The notes under the pieces were generated by a model. It did not search any database. It saw only the letters and a program-made list of their open reading frames with translations, and was not told where the DNA came from. From Nitrospirota bacterium (lineage in GTDB: Bacteria > Nitrospirota > JACRHL01), in contig JAOUMB010000014.1 in assembly GCA_029881725.1 (NCBI GenBank), positions 1 through 62,705 on the forward strand: a stretch of 62,705 nt of DNA. Reading direction: 5' to 3'. This document shows positions 11,714-21,676 of the stretch, piece after piece; the first letter of the stretch is position 1; the number at the start of each line of letters is the position of its first letter. Position numbers and translations under genes: made by a program.

Positions 11714-13402
11714 ATGCAACGCGTTATTTTCATTTGTTTTTTAGCCATCCTGCCGGTGATTTTCATCACTCCGGCAGGGGCGGCGTCCGACCCCCCCAAG
11801 GCGCAGTTGTTGCGTCTGGAGGAAAAAGTGCGCAACGCCGCCGACAGCCGCCTGACCGGGGTACCGGGGAGGCCGGTACTGGTGCTGGCCTGTTCCGGGT
11901 CCACATGCGGGGAAAACCACCGGGCCCAGGTGCCGGGTGCCCCCAACCGGGATGTGGCCGCGCTGGGCACCACCCTGGCCGCCGGGGGCTGGCTGGTCCT
12001 GGCGGTGGACGGCAAGCCCGGCGACCCGGTTACCGTCACCTGGACCCGCGGCGGCAGTACCGCGACCATTGAGGCGCGGTTGCCACCGGCGGGAAGCGTG
12101 ACCATGGTCGATCAGACCGGCGACGGGCCGGTTACCCGGCAGGAAGTTCCCGGCCCCGAGCACCGGCGGCGGGTAGCCGTGGGCCTGCGGGCGGTGGGTG
12201 ACCTGCTGGGAGCCATCGGTGTATTGCAGGGAGCCGAAGGGCTCACCCCGTCGGACCGTCTGTTGCTGGCCGACCTGTATCTGCAGGCGGACCTGCCCAA
12301 GTTGGCGGATGGCCTGTACCGGGAGTTGGACGCGGTCGCCGCGCACCGTGCTGCCGCCCGCCTGGGGCGCGCACGGGTTGCGCTGGCGCTGGGCGATGCG
12401 AACACCGCGCGCAAGCGGCTCGACAGTCTGGCCCTGAAGCGCGACCATCCGCTGGCCGCCGAGGCCGACGTGGTGCGGGTGGCGGCGCTGCGCCGTACCG
12501 AAGTGGCGGAGGACCTGATTCAGGCGCTACCTGCCGGGGGGAATCCGTTCGTGCATGCGGCGCGGGCCCAAACTTACCTTTCCGTGGGCGACACCTTCTC
12601 CGCCATCAACGAGTTTGACGAGGCGGCCCGGCTGGCCGTGACCAACGACCCGGAGGTGGTCTCCCTGCGCCAACGGGCACTGCTGGCGTCCGCTTCCCTC
12701 TACGCGGATCAGGGGCGTGTGGGCGAAGCCCTGACCCGCTTCGACCGGCTGGACAACGGGCCACTGGCGGATCGGGTCCGCTTCGGTCGCGCGCTGGCCT
12801 TCTTCCGCGCCGGAGATCTCATCAAGACCGTGGCCGAAATCGACACCCTGGAGCGTACCCATCCAGCCAGCGCGTGGCTTCCGGAGGCCCGACTGATGCG
12901 CGGCGACGCCTACCGGAAACTGGCCGCCACCCATCAGGCGGTGGGCGAGTACCGCAAGGCGCTGGCCGCATTCCGCAAGTGGGACACGGAACTGGACACC
13001 CTGCTCACCGAAGTGGCCACCGGGCCGTTCGTTCGCGGCCTCACCGGGCGCCTGTTCGGAGGCGGTGTCACCGGTGCCGCAGCAGACCCGCCCCGAGATC
13101 GCGCGGTGCAGGTACTGTTACGCACTCCCGGCATGGCCGACATCGTTGCCGACCATCGTCAGATGGCCTTTACCGTGGCCCGGCTTGAGCGGCTGGAAGG
13201 GGTGTCCGGCCAGTTGGGCAATTCGCTCCAGGCGTTGCGTGCCGGTCTGGAGGAAGCCGCCCGGGAGCAGGTCCGGGTGGCCCTGGTAAACGAACAGGAG
13301 CGCATTGGTGATCTGGCCATCGCCGCCAGCGTCGGCATGACCCAAACCATTCTGTTCGACCGCTCCGGTGGCCGGGGACTGGTATTCGAGGATGCGCCAT
13401 GA
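11714..13402 (+). CDS. Exported TPR protein, first gene of the AgmX/TolA-like operon
   Basis: A 562-residue protein with an N-terminal signal peptide (MQRVIFICFLAILPVIFI ... AGAA). Helical TPR-type repeats run from about residue 150 to 440 (for example VGDTFSAINEFDEAARLA, YADQGRVGEALTRFDRLD, GDAYRKLAATHQAVGEYRKALAAFRKW). The N-terminal 110 residues look like a beta-rich domain. Its stop overlaps the start of the next gene (ATGA), and the whole run to 18617 is tightly packed. This suggests a periplasmic scaffold working with the large TPR lipoprotein and the TolA-like protein. No enzyme motif is visible. The start at 11714 was chosen for the signal peptide; a frame from 11693 exists. Confidence 0.85.
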   Translation: MQRVIFICFLAILPVIFITPAGAASDPPKAQLLRLEEKVRNAADSRLTGVPGRPVLVLACSGSTCGENHRAQVPGAPNRDVAALGTTLAAGGWLVLAVDGKPGDPVTVTWTRGGSTATIEARLPPAGSVTMVDQTGDGPVTRQEVPGPEHRRRVAVGLRAVGDLLGAIGVLQGAEGLTPSDRLLLADLYLQADLPKLADGLYRELDAVAAHRAAARLGRARVALALGDANTARKRLDSLALKRDHPLAAEADVVRVAALRRTEVAEDLIQALPAGGNPFVHAARAQTYLSVGDTFSAINEFDEAARLAVTNDPEVVSLRQRALLASASLYADQGRVGEALTRFDRLDNGPLADRVRFGRALAFFRAGDLIKTVAEIDTLERTHPASAWLPEARLMRGDAYRKLAATHQAVGEYRKALAAFRKWDTELDTLLTEVATGPFVRGLTGRLFGGGVTGAAADPPRDRAVQVLLRTPGMADIVADHRQMAFTVARLERLEGVSGQLGNSLQALRAGLEEAAREQVRVALVNEQERIGDLAIAASVGMTQTILFDRSGGRGLVFEDAP

Positions 13403-13524
13403 GCCGCACCGACACCAACGGACGCCACCTGCTCATTCTGTTCATCCGCGCCGCCGCGCTGGTGATTCTGGCGGCCAATCTGTATTACCGGTCGGTACGC
13501 GGCTGGGTGGGGCCCGGCGTATGA
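13399..13524 (+). CDS. 41-residue single-helix membrane protein
   Basis: ATG at 13399 overlaps the previous stop (ATGA), and its own stop overlaps the next start (ATGA). The frame encodes MSRTDTNGRH, a hydrophobic helix LLILFIRAAALVILAANLYY, and RSVRGWVGPGV. The double overlap is strong evidence for translation. It looks like a small bitopic inner-membrane protein, perhaps a structural subunit of the envelope complex. No homologue is recognised. Confidence 0.65.
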   Translation: MSRTDTNGRHLLILFIRAAALVILAANLYYRSVRGWVGPGV

Positions 13525-16500
13525 ACCGCGCATCCCTGCTGATCGCCGCCGGGTTGCTGGCCGCCACCGCCGTCGCTGGCTGCGCCTCGGGTAGTTCCGG
13601 GGTGGACCGGGCCGAGGTGAACCGCATCGTCGGCACCGTTCTGTCCGGTCAGGCCGCCGCCGACCCGCGCGAGAAACTTGCGGCACTGGCGGAACTGGAG
13701 GCATTTTTAACCACCACCCCCCATCACAGCGAGCGCTTGGCGCGGGTGCTTACCCAACTGGCGGACCTGTATCGCGAAGTCGAAACCCGCACCCACGAGC
13801 AGGCCCTGGCGCGCCATACCGGCCCGGGCGATCCACCCAGGGCCGATCATCACCGATCCCTGGCCCTGTATAACAAGGTGCTGTCCGATTATCCGGAGCG
13901 CCGCGGCAACCACGTTATTTATTACCAGATGGCCCGTTCCTACGAAGCCATGGGCGAGCCGCGCCTGCAGCGCCACACCCTGGAAGCGTTTCTGAAAATC
14001 GTTCCGCGCGGTCCGGACGCCACCGAGGTTCGCTACCGGTTGGGGGAACTGGCTTTCAGCGACGGCCGTTTCCACCGTGCCGCAGAGCACTACGCCGAGG
14101 TGCTCAAGGATCCCGCAGCAGACCGGCAGCTCCGGGATTTTTCGGCCTACAAACGGGCCTGGGCGCTGTACCTGGCCCCCGACTACCCGATGGCGGTTCC
14201 GGCCGCCGTGGCTTTTCTGGACGAAAAGCAGGTCACCTTCAACCACCGCAGGGTGCTGGACAGCCAAACCATGCCGGAGCCCGACTGGGAACGGGTGCGC
14301 GAGGTGAACGGCCTTTTGGCGCGCATGCTCTACGATCAGGGGGGAGTGGCCGCCCTGCGCCGCGCCATCCCGGAAGACCGCGATTACCTGCACATGGTCT
14401 ATGCCAAGCTGGGCGAAGCCACCGCAACCTACAAAAATTCCCTGGCCGCCGTGCCGGTGTATGAGGATTTTTTAGCGCGCCACCCGAACAGTGCGGAGGC
14501 ACCCCGGTTCATCGAGTACATGGTGGACCGCTACACTGAGTCCCAGGACTTGGAAGCCGCCATCGCGGCCCGCCAGCGGCTGGTGGATCGCTACGGCCCC
14601 GGCACCGGCTGGTGGGACCGGCAGGACGCGGCCACCCGCCGCCGTTTTCTGCCGGTAGTCCGCGAGACCGCCTTCAAACTGGCTCGGCACTACCACTCGG
14701 TGGCCCAGGAAACGTCGCAGCCCGCCGACTACCGGCGCGCCACCTCCGCCTACCGGGAATTCATAAAGCGCTTCGAGGACAGCCGCGAGGCCCCGGAGGC
14801 GGCCTTTCTGCTGGGTGAAGTGCTGTTCGACGCCGGCGACTTCCCGGCCGCCGCCGAGGCCTATGCCCGTTCGGCCTACGGCTTTACCGTACACCAGCGC
14901 GCCGCCGAGGCCGCCTATGCCGCCGTATACGCCCGCGAACAGGCCCTGAAAAACCTCACCGTGGACGATACCGCCTATGGGCCGCGCCTGCACCTGTTGG
15001 TGGAGGCCTTTAACCAATTGGTGGAAAAATTCCCCCGCGAGGAGCGTCTCCCCGCCGCCTACGAGCGGGTGGCCGCGCTGCTGTTCACCACCCGCGACTA
15101 CGTGCGTCTGTATGACGTGTCGGACCGGGTGGTGCGCTTCGGCCCGCGCTCCCGCAAACTGCACGCCAAGGCATGGCGTGCCCTGGGTGAAGCCGCGCTG
15201 GAAACCGGACGCCAGGATCAGGCGGACGCGGCCTTCCGTCAGGCCATCTCCTACCTGGCGGACAACCCGGTGGAACTGGCGGAGGTCAAAAAGCTGCTGG
15301 CCGCCAACGCTATCTCCATGGCCCGCAACGGCACCGGCGACCAGCAAACCGCCCTGGCCCTGCTGGACGCAGCCAAATCACTGCCCGGGGACGATCCGCT
15401 GGCCCAGTCGGCGCGGGTGGACGCGGGACTGGCCTGGCTGAGCGCCGGGGAGTTCGGACAGGCATTGGCGGTGTTCCAGTCGTTCATTACCGCCTACCCC
15501 GATTCCGAGCACCGGGACCGGGTGGCACTGGCGGTGCTGAACGTGGGAGAACGGGCGCTGGAGGCGGGACAGCCCGACACCGCGCGCCGTGCCTGGGCCC
15601 GTTACCGGCAGTGGTTCGCCGGCATCTGGCCGGAGCGGGACATGGCCATCGCCCGCCTTGAGGGCCGCGCGCACATGGAGGCCGGAAATCTGGACGCCGC
15701 CGACCGGGCCTATACTCAGTCCATCGCGATTCACCGGGAGCACTCCGGGCAGGCGCCGGAGGAGATGATCGATCTGCTGGCGGGGATCCGTTACAAACGA
15801 GCCGTCGCCAAATCCGAAGCGGGTCGTCATCGGGACGCAGCGGACCTGTACGAGGGAGTCGCGGATCAACTGCCGGAATCGAGAGTGGTGCCCAATGCCC
15901 TGTTCGCGGCCATTTCGGCGCGGGAGGCCGCTGGGGATGCCACGGGGGCCGTGGCCACGGCGGACCGCCTGTTGCACGACTACCCCCACGCCCCGGAAGC
16001 CGCTGCAGTACAGGAGCGTCTGGGGGAACTGCTGCTGGCCGCCAAACGGCCGGTGGATGCCGGACTCCATTATCAGGCGCGCGCCGCCAACCGTCCGGAC
16101 GCGGAAGCTGCCGGCAACCTGCTGCGCGCCACCGAGATTTTTGAACAGGCCGGGGAGGGGCCCTCGGCTGCCGCCGCCATGATGATCCTGCGTGACCGCA
16201 GCGAGGTCGGCAGCGACCCGTGGGTGGCCGCCCACCGGGAGATGGCCCTGCTGGAATTGACCGGAAACCGCTCCGAGCCGAAACCGGGAAGCCCCGATGC
16301 GGCCAAACTGGAAACCCGTCTGCTGGATGACCTGATGCCTTTGGCAGAGGCCGACGAACTGGATGGCAACGGGCGGCGCATGGCAGCGGAAATCCTCCTC
16401 GCCCGCGCCGGTCAGGAACGCGCCCGCTACGATGCGGTGCGGTTGGTTCCGCCGTTGGAGGAAAACCTGGACGCCAAGCGCATCGCACTCAAAACCGCCA

Positions 16501-16844
16501 TCGCGGCCTTCACCGAGGCGCGCGGACTGCGCTCCCGCGATGTGTCCCTGAATGCCACCCGCCAGATCGGCGAGATGTTCGAGGCCTTCGCGGAGGCCCT
16601 GCTGAATTCGCCGCCCCCGGCCAGCCTGACCGAAACCCAGGTGGCCATTTATCAAAAGGCGGTGGCCAAAAAGGCCCGCCCCTACCAGTCCCGCGCCATC
16701 CAGACCCACGAGGAAAACCTGAAGCGCGCCCGCGAGGGAATCGTAAACGCGGACGTGGAAGCCAGCCTCGCCGCGCTGGGGCGCCTTGATCCGGAATGGT
16801 ATGATCGCCCGGAAATTTCCATGCAGCCTGTTTATGTTCCGTAA
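13521..16844 (+). CDS. Very large TPR lipoprotein of the AgmX/TolA-like operon
   Basis: A 1107-residue lipoprotein: signal peptide MNRASLLIAAGLLAATAVAGC with lipobox VAGC (Cys at residue 21). The remainder is almost entirely TPR-like helical hairpins (for example HVIYYQMARSYEAMGEPRLQ, SAYREFIKRFEDSREAPEAAF, ALAVFQSFITAYPDSEHRD, VATADRLLHDYPHAPEAAA). It probably forms a long superhelical scaffold anchored to the inner or outer membrane. The start is fixed by the ATGA overlap with the 41-residue gene and by the lipobox; the open frame begins at 13368. Its 3' end overlaps the next gene by 11 bp. In Myxococcus, large TPR proteins accompany AgmX/PglI-type proteins in gliding machinery. Shared function here is inference. 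Confidence 0.87.
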   Translation: MNRASLLIAAGLLAATAVAGCASGSSGVDRAEVNRIVGTVLSGQAAADPREKLAALAELEAFLTTTPHHSERLARVLTQLADLYREVETRTHEQALARHTGPGDPPRADHHRSLALYNKVLSDYPERRGNHVIYYQMARSYEAMGEPRLQRHTLEAFLKIVPRGPDATEVRYRLGELAFSDGRFHRAAEHYAEVLKDPAADRQLRDFSAYKRAWALYLAPDYPMAVPAAVAFLDEKQVTFNHRRVLDSQTMPEPDWERVREVNGLLARMLYDQGGVAALRRAIPEDRDYLHMVYAKLGEATATYKNSLAAVPVYEDFLARHPNSAEAPRFIEYMVDRYTESQDLEAAIAARQRLVDRYGPGTGWWDRQDAATRRRFLPVVRETAFKLARHYHSVAQETSQPADYRRATSAYREFIKRFEDSREAPEAAFLLGEVLFDAGDFPAAAEAYARSAYGFTVHQRAAEAAYAAVYAREQALKNLTVDDTAYGPRLHLLVEAFNQLVEKFPREERLPAAYERVAALLFTTRDYVRLYDVSDRVVRFGPRSRKLHAKAWRALGEAALETGRQDQADAAFRQAISYLADNPVELAEVKKLLAANAISMARNGTGDQQTALALLDAAKSLPGDDPLAQSARVDAGLAWLSAGEFGQALAVFQSFITAYPDSEHRDRVALAVLNVGERALEAGQPDTARRAWARYRQWFAGIWPERDMAIARLEGRAHMEAGNLDAADRAYTQSIAIHREHSGQAPEEMIDLLAGIRYKRAVAKSEAGRHRDAADLYEGVADQLPESRVVPNALFAAISAREAAGDATGAVATADRLLHDYPHAPEAAAVQERLGELLLAAKRPVDAGLHYQARAANRPDAEAAGNLLRATEIFEQAGEGPSAAAAMMILRDRSEVGSDPWVAAHREMALLELTGNRSEPKPGSPDAAKLETRLLDDLMPLAEADELDGNGRRMAAEILLARAGQERARYDAVRLVPPLEENLDAKRIALKTAIAAFTEARGLRSRDVSLNATRQIGEMFEAFAEALLNSPPPASLTETQVAIYQKAVAKKARPYQSRAIQTHEENLKRAREGIVNADVEASLAALGRLDPEWYDRPEISMQPVYVP

Positions 16845-17169
16845 ACTCCATATCACCTCTGGAGCGCCCGTCGCCCTCGCCGCCGCGGTCCTGTGCGCGG
16901 CATTGCTGGCCGCAACCGCCGCCTTCGCCCAGCAGGCCGGGAAAGTTCCCAAGCAGCAGAACCGGCAGGTGATCAGCGGCAGCGTGATCGACATCATCGG
17001 AACCTCCGAGTGGCCGCGCGGCGATACCCATATCCCATGGCGGGATTCGGAAGGGTTTCAAGGCGGACCCGAAGTGGATTACGTCCAATACCTGCGCCGG
17101 GAAATTGGCCTGCCGCTGGATCGGGAGTCGGTTCGCCGACGCACCGATCTGGAGCGCTCCGCGCGTTGA
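16834..17169 (+). CDS. Small exported protein of the AgmX/TolA-like operon
   Basis: 111 residues with a clear signal peptide (hydrophobic stretch VALAAAVLCAALLAATAAFA followed by Q). The mature part, about 78 residues, is charged and polar, with HIPWRDSEGF and DYVQYLRREIGLPLDRESV. It starts inside the end of the TPR lipoprotein gene (11-bp overlap) and is followed 14 bp later by the TolA-like gene. I do not recognise a family. Position and coupling suggest a periplasmic accessory component. Confidence 0.7.
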   Translation: MFRKLHITSGAPVALAAAVLCAALLAATAAFAQQAGKVPKQQNRQVISGSVIDIIGTSEWPRGDTHIPWRDSEGFQGGPEVDYVQYLRREIGLPLDRESVRRRTDLERSAR

Positions 17170-17183
17170 TCAACTGAGTTCTA

Positions 17184-18617
17184 TTGCCCGTGCCCCGCGA
17201 TCCCCACGCCAACGACACCCGCCGTTTCCGGCGGGTGCTGTTATTGACTCTGGCCTTGTATGCGGCGCTGGCGACGGTGCTGACCGTATTGCAGTCCCCT
17301 CCCCGCCCGGAACAGGACCAGGCTGAACGCATGCGGGTGGCGCGGCTGCTGATCGACGCGGAGGAACTGGCTCGCCAGCAGGCCGAGGCCGAAGCCAAGA
17401 AACGCGCCGAGGAGGAAGCGGCGCGCCTCAAGGCGGAAGAAGAGGCCCGCAAAAAAGCCGAGGCCGAGGCCCTCCAGCGGGCTGAAGAGGAGGCTCGACG
17501 AAAGGCGGAAGCGGAAGCACGCCAGAAAGCCGAGGAAGAAGCCAGAAAAAAGGCGGAGGAGGAAGCCAGAAAGCGGGCCGAGGAAGAGGCCCGCAAAAAG
17601 GCCGAGGAGGAAGCGCGACGAAAGGCGGAGGAGGAACGCCTGAAGTCCATGGACGCCGAGGCCCGCAAGGCCGAAGAGGCACGCCGGCGCGCCGAGGAGG
17701 AACGCCAACGGGCCGAGGCCGCGCGCAAGGCGGAGGAAGAACGGCAACGGGCCATCGCCGAGGAAGCGCGGAAAAAGGCCGAGGCCGAACAACAACGCGC
17801 CGCCGCCGAGCAGGCCCGCCAGCAGGCGGCTGCCGAGGCTCAGCGCAGGCAGGCTGAACTGGCAAGGCTGGCGGCCATCAAGGCCGCGCTGGAGGAAAAG
17901 CGGCGGCGCGAGGAGGAGGCCCGCCTGGCCGAGCAACAGGCCCTGGCCTCCGGACTGCTGGGAGGCCTCGACGACGATGAAGAGGATTTTGACGACTTCC
18001 TGGCCGACGATACCGACGCACCCTTGGTGGGGGCTGCGGAAACAGGCCTGCTGGGTGGTGCTCCAGCGGCTCCGACCACGGCATCCGCAAAGGGCGGCAC
18101 CGGCGGCTCCGCCGAGATCGACGCACTGCTGGCCGACATCGGTGAACTGGAACAACTGGAGTCCCTGATCGGAAGTACCGAGGTGGCCGCCGCCAGCGAG
18201 GAAGAACTGGCGGCATTTATGGACGACGTGGCCTCCGGGCGCCTGGATGTTTCCGAAATGGCCGCCCGCGCCACCACCCGGATGGAAAGTCCGTTCACCA
18301 TCGAGCGCGAGGTGGGTGGCTTCGGGGTGCGCAAGGCGGAAGATATCCGCGCGGTGATCCACAGCCACCGGGGCGAACTGCAATTCTTCTATGAACAGGC
18401 CCTGGCGAAAATTCCCGGGCTGCGCGGGACGGTGGTGGTGCGCATGGTGATCAATGCCGCCGGGCGGGTTACCGAGGTCCAGGTGGTGGATTCGGACACC
18501 GGTGCCGCCGCCTTCGACCGGGAACTGCTCAACCGCATCCGGGAGTGGAATTTTCCTCCCGTTCCGCGTGGTGAGGTGGAAGGCACCTACCCGTTCCGTT
18601 TCGGTGACGGCATCTGA
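17184..18617 (+). CDS. TolA-like coiled-coil protein with AgmX/PglI C-terminal domain
   Basis: A 477-residue inner-membrane protein. One N-terminal helix (VLLLTLALYAALATVLTVLQ) is followed by a 210-residue Ala/Glu/Lys/Arg-rich coiled coil (repeats such as AEEEARKKAEEEARKRAEE), an acidic Gly/Ala linker, and a 110-residue C-terminal domain. That domain reads VRKAEDIRAVIHSHRGELQFFYEQAL ... VVVRMVINAAGRVTEVQVVDSD ... NRIREWNFPP, the AgmX/PglI (TonB-like) C-terminus. Such proteins span the periplasm and transmit proton-motive-force energy from TolQ/TolR-type motors. No TolQR pair is in this window. The start is TTG 17184 or GTG 17190; neither has a strong Shine-Dalgarno. A terminator follows at 18768-18814. 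Confidence 0.9.
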   Translation: MPVPRDPHANDTRRFRRVLLLTLALYAALATVLTVLQSPPRPEQDQAERMRVARLLIDAEELARQQAEAEAKKRAEEEAARLKAEEEARKKAEAEALQRAEEEARRKAEAEARQKAEEEARKKAEEEARKRAEEEARKKAEEEARRKAEEERLKSMDAEARKAEEARRRAEEERQRAEAARKAEEERQRAIAEEARKKAEAEQQRAAAEQARQQAAAEAQRRQAELARLAAIKAALEEKRRREEEARLAEQQALASGLLGGLDDDEEDFDDFLADDTDAPLVGAAETGLLGGAPAAPTTASAKGGTGGSAEIDALLADIGELEQLESLIGSTEVAAASEEELAAFMDDVASGRLDVSEMAARATTRMESPFTIEREVGGFGVRKAEDIRAVIHSHRGELQFFYEQALAKIPGLRGTVVVRMVINAAGRVTEVQVVDSDTGAAAFDRELLNRIREWNFPPVPRGEVEGTYPFRFGDGI

Positions 18618-18767: not shown

Positions 18768-18814
18768 CCGGGCGGTGCCGCTTTTGAGCCGGTGGCACCG
18801 CCCGGTCCGTTTTT
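18768..18814 (+). terminator. Rho-independent terminator after the AgmX/TolA operon
   Basis: CCGGGCGGTGCC (18768-18779) is the exact reverse complement of GGCACCGCCCGG (18794-18805), with a 14-nt loop, followed by TCCGTTTTT. This is a strong intrinsic terminator on the plus strand, ending the operon before the permease gene at 18860. Confidence 0.9.
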
Positions 18815-18859: not shown

Positions 18860-19798
18860 ATGGAACAATCCCCGCCCATGGGAATGTTTCTTCTGCGGCG
18901 GCTGACCACGTTGATCCCGGTGCTTCTCGGGGTGCTGACGGCGGTGTTTTTGCTGATTCATATGATCCCCGGCGATCCGGTGGAGGTAATGCTTGGCGAA
19001 ATGGCGCTGCCCGCCGACCGGGAGGCGCTGCGCGTCCAGTTGCATCTGGACCAGCCGCTGGCGGTGCAATACGGCCATTATCTGGTCGGCGTGCTGACCG
19101 GCGACCTGGGCACCAGCATGCATTCCGGACGCCCGGTGCTGGAGATGGTGGCCGAACGGGTGGGCCCAACATTCCTGCTCACCCTGGCGGCCATGGTGGT
19201 CGCCATCTCCGTTGCCCTTCCACTGGGGCTGATCAGCGCCCTCAAGGCGGGTACCGCCGTGGACCACACGGCCATGGTGGGCGCGCTGCTGGGGGTTTCC
19301 ATGCCCAATTTCTGGCTCGGCCCGCTCCTGTTGCTGGCCTTTTCAGTGCATCTGGGTTGGCTGCCGCTGGGGGGACTGGACGGGCCGCTGTCGTTCATCC
19401 TGCCCGCCATCACCCTGGGAACCGCCATGGCCGCCATTCTCACCCGCATGGTGCGCGCCAGCCTGCTGGAGGTCATGGACCGGGAATTCGTGCGCGCCGC
19501 GCTGGCCAAGGGGCTCACCCGCTGGCAGGTCATGGCCCGCCACGTGCTCGCCAACGCCCTGATCCCGGTAATTACCGTGCTGGGCCTGCAATTCGGCGCC
19601 CTGCTGGCCGGAGCCATCATCACCGAAACCGTTTTTTCCTGGCCCGGACTGGGCCGCCTGACCGTAGAGGCCATCCAGACCCGCGACTATCCGGTCGTGC
19701 AGGGATGCGTAATGTTTATCTGCCTGGGGTATCTGGCCGCCAGCCTGCTTACCGATATCTGCTACGCCGCCGCCGACCCGCGGGTCCGCCTGCGCTGA
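18860..19798 (+). CDS. dppB: ABC transporter permease, DppB/OppB type
   Basis: A 312-residue integral membrane protein with the N-terminal signature of peptide-type permeases (FLLRRLTTLIPVLLGV, FLLIHMIPGDPVEVMLG) and the cytoplasmic EAA loop (EFVRAALAKGLTRWQVMARHVLANALIPVI). It would form half of the membrane channel of a dipeptide/oligopeptide/nickel ABC importer. The partner DppC-like gene is 1 kb downstream, separated by a propeller gene. No substrate-binding protein or ATPase gene is in the window, so the substrate is unknown. ATGs at 18878 and 18884 are alternative starts nearer the usual family N-terminus. Confidence 0.9.
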   Translation: MEQSPPMGMFLLRRLTTLIPVLLGVLTAVFLLIHMIPGDPVEVMLGEMALPADREALRVQLHLDQPLAVQYGHYLVGVLTGDLGTSMHSGRPVLEMVAERVGPTFLLTLAAMVVAISVALPLGLISALKAGTAVDHTAMVGALLGVSMPNFWLGPLLLLAFSVHLGWLPLGGLDGPLSFILPAITLGTAMAAILTRMVRASLLEVMDREFVRAALAKGLTRWQVMARHVLANALIPVITVLGLQFGALLAGAIITETVFSWPGLGRLTVEAIQTRDYPVVQGCVMFICLGYLAASLLTDICYAAADPRVRLR

Positions 19799-19808
19799 CG
19801 GCACACAT

Positions 19809-20852
19809 ATGGAAACCGAAACCGTGAACATCCTTGCATCCATCCCCCTGCAACCCGACCCCGCCCTGTCCATTCCGTTCAAGGTCCACCAGGCCGCCGG
19901 GCGCATGGTGGTCCTGAACACCTTCGGCCAGCCTTACCGGCAGGAACTTATGGTGATCGATACCGAAAGTCAGGCGGTGCTGCGCCGGTGGCGTTTCGAA
20001 GGCACCGGTGGCCGCCACCTGTTCAACCTGGATGCCCAACTCACCCCGGACGGGAAACAGGTGCTGTTGGTTGGGGGTGAACTGCTGGACGACACCGGCG
20101 CCAATTTCGGCCCTGAATGCGTGCTGACGGTACTGGACGTGGAAAGCGGCAAACGGCGGCGCGTGAATGCAGGGCCGCTGGGATTCAACTTCGTGTCCGC
20201 ATGCCCGGACGGCCGGCGGTGTGTGGTGCTGCATAACGGAAACAACGAAGACCAGGTTCAGTTCTACGAACTGCGCGTGGTGGACCTGGACACCCTGACG
20301 GTGACCGCCACCCGCAACCTGGACGCTCCGGTGAACAACATCCTGTACCGGCCCGCCGAGGGACGGGCCCTGCTCAGCGTGGGACGCGACGTGGTGTCCT
20401 GGGACCTGAACGAGATGCAGCCGGGGGAGCGCGTCTGTCCACGCTTCAATCATCCGTATCTGCTGGCCCAGTTCGATCCGGCGGACCCGACCATCTACGC
20501 CGCCTACGTGGCCAGCAAGGTGGTGGTCAAGGAAATCGACGTGAACGCCCGCTCGGTAACTGCCCAGCACACCTTCACCTGGGCCTGGACCGCCAGCACC
20601 AACATCGTTCCGTTCGGCACCGGCCACCTGATCTTCCCGCCATCCAGTTCCGCCGGGGCCATCTGCCTGTGGAACCGGACCAACGGCCTCATCGACCACA
20701 AGATGGCCCTGCCGGGCAATATGATCCTGTCCACCCCGCACCCGGACGGGGAACGGATGTACCTGTTTGACTACGAGGCGCAGGCCCTGCATCTGGTGCA
20801 GGCCGCCCCGTTGCTGCAACCGGTCCCCGTGGAGCAGGGAAGCGGCTGGTGA
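19809..20852 (+). CDS. Beta-propeller protein lying between the two permease genes
   Basis: 347 residues, no signal peptide or membrane helix. It is rich in blade-like repeats, such as LMVIDTESQAVLRRW, LTVLDVESGKRRRVNAG, LRVVDLDTLTVTATRNL and KVVVKEIDVNARSVTAQHTF, typical of WD40/YVTN-like propellers. It starts 11 bp after dppB, and its stop overlaps the GTG of the dppC-like gene (GTGA). It is therefore translated with the transporter genes. A cytoplasmic scaffold or sensor role for the transporter is possible but unproven. I know of no standard peptide-transport operon with such a gene. Confidence 0.8.
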   Translation: METETVNILASIPLQPDPALSIPFKVHQAAGRMVVLNTFGQPYRQELMVIDTESQAVLRRWRFEGTGGRHLFNLDAQLTPDGKQVLLVGGELLDDTGANFGPECVLTVLDVESGKRRRVNAGPLGFNFVSACPDGRRCVVLHNGNNEDQVQFYELRVVDLDTLTVTATRNLDAPVNNILYRPAEGRALLSVGRDVVSWDLNEMQPGERVCPRFNHPYLLAQFDPADPTIYAAYVASKVVVKEIDVNARSVTAQHTFTWAWTASTNIVPFGTGHLIFPPSSSAGAICLWNRTNGLIDHKMALPGNMILSTPHPDGERMYLFDYEAQALHLVQAAPLLQPVPVEQGSGW

Positions 20853-21676
20853 GGCGTTTTCCGGTTCTGTTTGGCGGTGGCGTGCTGGGCCTGCTGGCCT
20901 TGTCGGCGCTGCTCGCCCCGTGGCTGTCGCCGGTGGACCCGACGTCCATCGACCTGCCCAACCGCCTGCTCGGGCCGGGAGGGGCCCATCTGCTCGGCCA
21001 GGATGCCCTCGGACGGGATATTCTCAGCCGCATTATCCACGGGGCGCGGGTTTCGCTGTTTGTGGGGGTGGTCACGGTTTCGGTGTCCGTGACTCTGGGG
21101 TGCCTGATCGGCGCTGTGGCCGGTTACCGGGGGGGATGGCTGGATGAGGTCCTGATGCGCGTTGTAGACGTGTTTCTGGCCTTCCCAGGCATATTGCTGG
21201 CGATTGCCCTGACTGCCGTACTGGGGCCGAGCCTGAACAACGTGATTCTGGCCCTGTGCATCATGGGGTGGGTTGGTTACGCGCGCATCGTGCGCGGCCA
21301 GGTGCTGCTGGCCCGGGAACTGACCTTTGTGGAAGCGGCGCGGGCCACCGGATGCTCCGGTCCCCGTATCCTGCTGCGGCACATCCTCCCCAACGTGATG
21401 GCTCCAGTCCTGGTGGAGGCCACTTTCGGCATGGCGGGCGCTATTATCGCCGAAGCCGGACTTTCTTTTCTCGGACTGGGAACCCAGCCTCCCACGCCCA
21501 GTTGGGGAGCCATGCTGGCCGAGGGCGCGGACTACATTCTTTTTGCGCCGCACCTGACAATTTTCCCAGGTGCGGCTATCTTGTTGACTGTGTTGGGTAT
21601 TAACCTGCTGGGAGACGCCCTCAGAGACCGGCTGCAAGGAGGCACCGGGGGGGGCGTGTTGGGAGAGGCAAAATAA
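20849..21676 (+). CDS. dppC: ABC transporter permease, DppC/OppC type
   Basis: A 275-residue membrane protein. The N-terminal part (VDPTSIDLPNRLLGPGGAHLLGQDALGRDILSRIIHGARVS, around residues 28-68) is the hallmark of DppC/OppC permeases. The EAA loop reads LTFVEAARATGCSGPRILLRHILPNVMAPV. It should pair with the DppB-like protein in an importer of peptides or nickel. The GTG start overlaps the preceding stop. The C-terminus (GDALRDRLQGG) is complete. The HU promoter follows directly. Confidence 0.9.
   Translation: MRRFPVLFGGGVLGLLALSALLAPWLSPVDPTSIDLPNRLLGPGGAHLLGQDALGRDILSRIIHGARVSLFVGVVTVSVSVTLGCLIGAVAGYRGGWLDEVLMRVVDVFLAFPGILLAIALTAVLGPSLNNVILALCIMGWVGYARIVRGQVLLARELTFVEAARATGCSGPRILLRHILPNVMAPVLVEATFGMAGAIIAEAGLSFLGLGTQPPTPSWGAMLAEGADYILFAPHLTIFPGAAILLTVLGINLLGDALRDRLQGGTGGGVLGEAK

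Follow-up and report, generated by a model that had tools for sequence, protein, structure and literature searches.

The Agl-Glt core was described by Luciano et al. (2011) as a set of genes conserved in Gamma- and Deltaproteobacteria with an unexplained function, and the core alone was argued not to drive gliding (PMC3169522). Its Group B genes are gltC, gltD, gltE and gltG together with aglR, aglQ and aglS, and the same authors noted a further gene in addition to these seven (PMC3169522). In Myxococcus the D28N substitution in AglQ abolishes proton conductance and paralyses the machine. The Agl-Nfs system of this organism moves polysaccharide (PMC3858216). A review cites the likeness of GltF to a TonB box.

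To this background we add a locus from a Nitrospirota bacterium, found in a window of 62,705 nucleotides (the whole stretch of DNA that was analysed, which is contig C3 of a 2.96-Mb genome in 126 contigs). Five coupled ORFs of 562, 41, 1107, 111 and 477 aa, all on the + strand between positions 11714 and 18617, correspond by homology and gene order to the Glt, or non-motor, part of the core complex of PMC3169522, and not to an undescribed assembly as a sequence-only reading had proposed. It represents a known system in rearranged form, with a single small protein that is new. The features, with the names assigned to them by homology and gene order, are as follows.

11714..13402, + strand, GltC-position protein of 562 aa, with TPR matches and similarity to the gammaproteobacterial GltC profile; orthologues lead the operon in three relatives (G001-G003)
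13399..13524, + strand, P41, a predicted single-helix membrane protein of 41 aa, kept at the same place in G001, G002 and G003
13521..16844, + strand, GltD, a TPR lipoprotein of 1107 aa, with TPR matches and homologues in the family, in myxococci and in gammaproteobacteria
16834..17169, + strand, GltF-position exported protein of 111 aa, of a small-protein family that keeps its operon position across the phylum and among gammaproteobacteria
17184..18617, + strand, GltG of 477 aa with a TTG start, with NF033768 and TonB_C above cut-off
18768..18805, + strand, intrinsic terminator-like hairpin closing the operon, with 15 pairs (12 G-C) and a T run

The junctions are, in order, ATGA, ATGA, an 11-bp overlap and a 14-bp gap, and the hairpin begins 150 bp past the last operon stop; the five-gene coupled run and its strong terminator are thus as first described from the sequence. 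No convincing sigma-70 promoter was found for the operon. The five ORFs are more than a chance run because each has homologues, in the same order, in other genera, and the gene order in relatives likewise bears out the original description of one linked, conserved, trans-envelope set of TolA/TonB-like and AgmX/Glt-related character.

Evidence for the individual assignments was drawn in part from Pfam and NCBIfam domain searches. The GltD protein carries a lipobox (AVAGC, recognized by eye) with a Cys that hardly varies across the aligned GltD sequences, and it is 62% and 48% identical to its counterparts in family members and 24-28% identical to those in other families; the TPR matches and this lipobox agree with the earlier account of two TPR proteins, one of them a lipoprotein. 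A profile built from the window protein and its relatives in the phylum matched myxococcal GltD at 1e-104 (2e-30 for the single sequence) and the gammaproteobacterial loci at 1e-168 or better, while a search of solved structures returned generic TPR proteins only. GltG is predicted to have one N-terminal TM helix, a long charged helix and an AgmX/TonB-like C-terminus, scoring 82 bits with NF033768 (cut-off 40), which upholds the AgmX/PglI C-terminus first seen on the TolA-like protein, and 43 bits with TonB_C (cut-off 25). Its profile matched myxococcal FHA-GltG at 3e-28, and it has the only AgmX tail found in the genome. A contig scan with the 477-aa protein was swamped by low-complexity coiled coils, yet it yielded two myxococcal Glt loci.

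The GltC-position protein has a signal peptide and an N-terminal beta domain followed by TPRs, with strands predicted at residues 55-144 and helical repeats after them. Residues 181-444 matched the gammaproteobacterial GltC profile at E=9e-12, a match weaker than that of GltD owing to the TPR content, and comparison of the predicted structure with solved structures gave TPR and nothing more specific. Sequence similarity to the myxococcal namesakes is weak for this protein and for the GltF-position protein alike.

Neither small protein has a Pfam or NCBIfam match above cut-off, and both had been called unrecognised. For the 111-aa protein this no longer stands, as its family is conserved both across the phylum and among gammaproteobacteria (7e-7 to 1e-17) with an unchanged operon position, which in gammaproteobacteria and in the other families of the phylum is between GltD/E and the motor. 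Members share a motif of roughly SIIGNxExPKxLYIVPWK in gammaproteobacteria, for which the window version is VIDIIGTSEWPRGDTHIPW. Alignment with myxococcal GltF was in register but weak (1 of 120 shuffles scored as high); the TonB-box likeness of GltF would be consistent with the TonB-like end of GltG gripping this protein. For P41 the description still holds, although the protein is conserved in the family: it is kept in all four members (the window genome, G001, G002 and G003) at the same position, ATGA-coupled on both sides, with a core of xLIRAAxLVxxxxxLYYR. A P41 profile found no match in 20 gammaproteobacterial and myxococcal loci, and P41 appears, from these searches, to be specific to this bacterial family and the sole new part of the system.

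The standard order, seen in gammaproteobacterial loci and in a myxococcal MAG, is (front gene)-GltC-GltD-GltE-GltF-AglR-AglQ-AglS-GltG; the MAG locus itself reads GltC-GltD-GltE-GltF-AglR-AglQ-AglS-GltG(FHA). Nineteen gammaproteobacterial loci follow front gene-GltC-GltD-GltE-GltF-AglR-ExbD-ExbD-GltG with few exceptions, namely two with GltD in one long ORF and no separate GltC, and one each without GltE, without the small protein and without the motor. AglR lies within 5 kb (<=5 kb) of 58 of 81 gammaproteobacterial GltD copies, and one gammaproteobacterium carries AglRQS-GltG on another contig. The window genome resembles the gammaproteobacterial and Geobacter core in gene set, in the order of the genes that are still together and in the small exported protein, but it has two loci and not one, with GltE moved alongside the motor and GltG left in place. 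The window operon further differs in its extra 41-aa membrane protein, in the N-terminal beta domain of its GltC and in having no separate front gene. This gene of ~180 aa was not found as a separate gene, and its fusion to GltC is without support from profiles, since 15 of 120 shuffles scored as high; the predicted strand order of the two is similar, and a structure model of the front gene product had no specific PDB match.

Motor genes were the part reported missing. A local search indeed found none at the locus, but the genome does have them: it encodes two MotA/ExbB and three ExbD proteins, among them a trio of one AglR-type ExbB and two ExbDs (AglQ and AglS) at C12:124-1809; the remaining ExbB (C32) and ExbD (C36) are TolQ/TolR-like and encoded separately. 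A tree of 52 ExbB-type proteins puts all 36 Glt-linked ones, including the C12 protein, on one side of a branch with support of 100/99 and keeps the TolQ of the genome apart from them. Because contig C12 starts within the GltE gene, its sequence just before the trio covers only the C-terminus of a TPR-like protein, which resembles the C-terminal part of the TPR lipoprotein found there in G001. In G001, G002 and G003, whose sequence is complete at this point, the trio stands behind a TPR lipoprotein of ~200 aa in the GltE position, which supplies this core member before the motor.

The distant ExbB/ExbD pair that the sequence-only reading suggested looking for is present as this trio, and it is unlinked to the Glt operon in all four genomes of the window's family. 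In each the core genes lie on two contigs, and in G001-G003 the Glt operon or the motor lies well inside a long contig. From the arrangement expected outside Deltaproteobacteria, with the core genes in a single genomic region, the window genome departs in layout, not in parts, and gammaproteobacteria also show splits. Two other families of the phylum keep one run of TPR-TPR-(TPR lipoprotein, in one family)-small exported protein-ExbB-ExbD-ExbD-TolA/AgmX, and one genome (G026) is split in another way, its AglRQS-GltG lying on a separate contig; only the window's family showed the split in which GltG is left behind and GltE accompanies the motor. Relatives were also checked for loss of the small ORFs and for TPR genes unlinked to AgmX genes, and the outcome did not speak against the linkage.

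GltD homologues occur in 14 of 61 sampled relatives, and an AglR-type ExbB (>170 bits) occurs in exactly these 14 and is absent from the other 47, where the next score is 79 bits. This co-occurrence is partly shared ancestry, as all members of two families (f1 and f8) are included; within a third (f5) the same two genomes carry both proteins and the others carry neither.

The genes next to the motor were also recorded. In G001 (L110:9935-14067) and G002 (L112:344-3738), GltE-AglRQS is divergent from Wza-type export and Wzz genes, with tyrosine-kinase-type genes also among them in G001. A motor beside polysaccharide export was rejected as a general rule, being found in two of the four family members and not in the window's genome, where the corresponding polysaccharide export locus and the motor are on different contigs (C115 and C12).

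With the motor located, the five proteins are very probably the non-motor half of an Agl-Glt core that is split in this family into two loci, acting as a PMF-driven transducer that passes force outward from the inner membrane to the outer one; this reading stands on the observed homology, gene order, co-occurrence and motor in the genome. The co-occurrence, with its component of shared ancestry, would point to a physical partnership of the two loci. The window would contribute GltC-P41-GltD-GltF-GltG and the start of contig C12 GltE-AglR-AglQ-AglS. AglR and its two ExbD-like chains would form an inner-membrane motor of the 5:2 class that is driven by protons and would move or pull GltG, anchored by its single TM helix and spanning the periplasm on its charged helix. 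The TonB-like end of GltG could then grip, and do mechanical work on, an outer-membrane-side assembly of the GltF-type peptide, periplasmic GltC and the lipoproteins GltD and GltE. The most likely role of P41, whose gene lies between those for GltC and GltD, is that of an accessory inner-membrane subunit peculiar to the family.

A highly improbable alternative is a static scaffold in which the five proteins bridge the inner and outer membranes with no PMF-driven motor. It draws on the absence of a motor gene at the locus and on additional gammaproteobacterial GltC-GltD(-GltE)(-GltF) loci (L181-L190) with no adjacent motor or GltG, which are mostly in genomes with a complete locus elsewhere. 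However, AglR, AglQ and AglS are present in the window genome and in all family members, AglR co-occurs perfectly with GltD in the sample, and the motor-coupling GltG is retained here, whereas the motor-less copies observed do not have it. Two observations on the surroundings of such loci can be added: L181 adjoins genes matching type VI genes in size, and genes of about 400, 210-224 and 250 aa recur upstream of the front gene in L183, L189 and L190, the product of the ~250-aa gene resembling, by eye, an SH3-type exported protein.

Returning to the motor of the split core, in the first ExbD (AglQ position; L011:761-1285 and homologues) the intramembrane Asp is replaced by Asn in 26 of 32 aligned rows, including the window genome, and is kept in the myxococcal and f5 rows; the second ExbD has Asp in 32 of 33. 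Gammaproteobacterial loci also have the Asn, whereas Myxococcus has Asp. If this position is equivalent to D28 of AglQ, an equivalence resting on alignment and gene order, the core motor would work with one Asp per ExbD pair.

This residue also bears on whether the system is a gliding-motility machine like that of Myxococcus xanthus (clusters G1, G2 and M1), an even less probable reading. The two share GltC, GltD, GltE, a GltF-position protein, GltG and AglRQS, the core genes and their order agree with the myxococcal locus, and in both the motor locus is apart from the Glt locus. The window genome, however, has a single AgmX-tail protein and so no separate GltJ, its GltG is without the FHA domain, and Asn occupies the site in its first ExbD at which D28N paralyses the Myxococcus machine; the argument in PMC3169522 that the core by itself does not drive gliding stands against this reading as well. 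Least probable of the three is a role in envelope stability or nutrient uptake, as in Tol-Pal or TonB systems. The TonB_C domain and TolA-like charged helix would suit it, but the TolA models (under cut-off, 44/213 and 24/59 bits), the separate TolQ-like and TolR-like genes and the grouping of the motor with Glt-linked ExbB proteins and not with the TolQ of the genome all point away from it. Those systems share with the core its class of motor and a transducer that has one TM helix and a TonB-like end; here there are two different ExbD chains and large TPR partners, and no TolB, Pal or receptor in the operon.

What the split Agl-Glt core drives can be considered by analogy. In the Agl-Nfs spore-coat machine, as here, a Glt-type apparatus has its motor encoded elsewhere (PMC3858216), but the exo/nfs context is not present in the window. 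We tentatively suggest, by analogy with Agl-Nfs and Agl-Glt of Myxococcus, that the load may be a surface polysaccharide; this link is not seen in the window genome, where export locus and motor are apart. Rather doubtful is the broader idea that the Glt core is a general force module with different loads in different lineages, the split in this family allowing one AglRQS motor to be controlled separately from its transducer, P41 docking the two as a new membrane subunit, and the core elsewhere serving type VI secretion. As GltD occurs in 62 of 274 sampled gammaproteobacterial species, the job of the core is a sizeable question, and the split motor, the family-specific subunit and the natural Asn provide handles on motor-transducer coupling and on the load that is driven.

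Beside the operon, at 18860-21676 of the window, the gene for a 347-aa protein, beta-propeller-like by eye, lies between two dipeptide/oligopeptide-type ABC permease genes and is coupled to both. In four gammaproteobacterial genomes (G140:C5, G191:C23, G200:C8 and G264:C69; L160-L167), a complete type VI secretion cluster has GltC-GltD-GltE-GltF and AglRQS-GltG on its flanks or next to it. The cluster in G140 encodes, by Pfam, TssG, TssF, TssK, DotU, IcmF, VipB, ImpA and a gp25-type protein, and the other three have the same type VI genes by similarity. A full-text literature search found no paper joining the Glt core and type VI secretion, and the AglR proteins of the four loci form one clade with support of 100/100.
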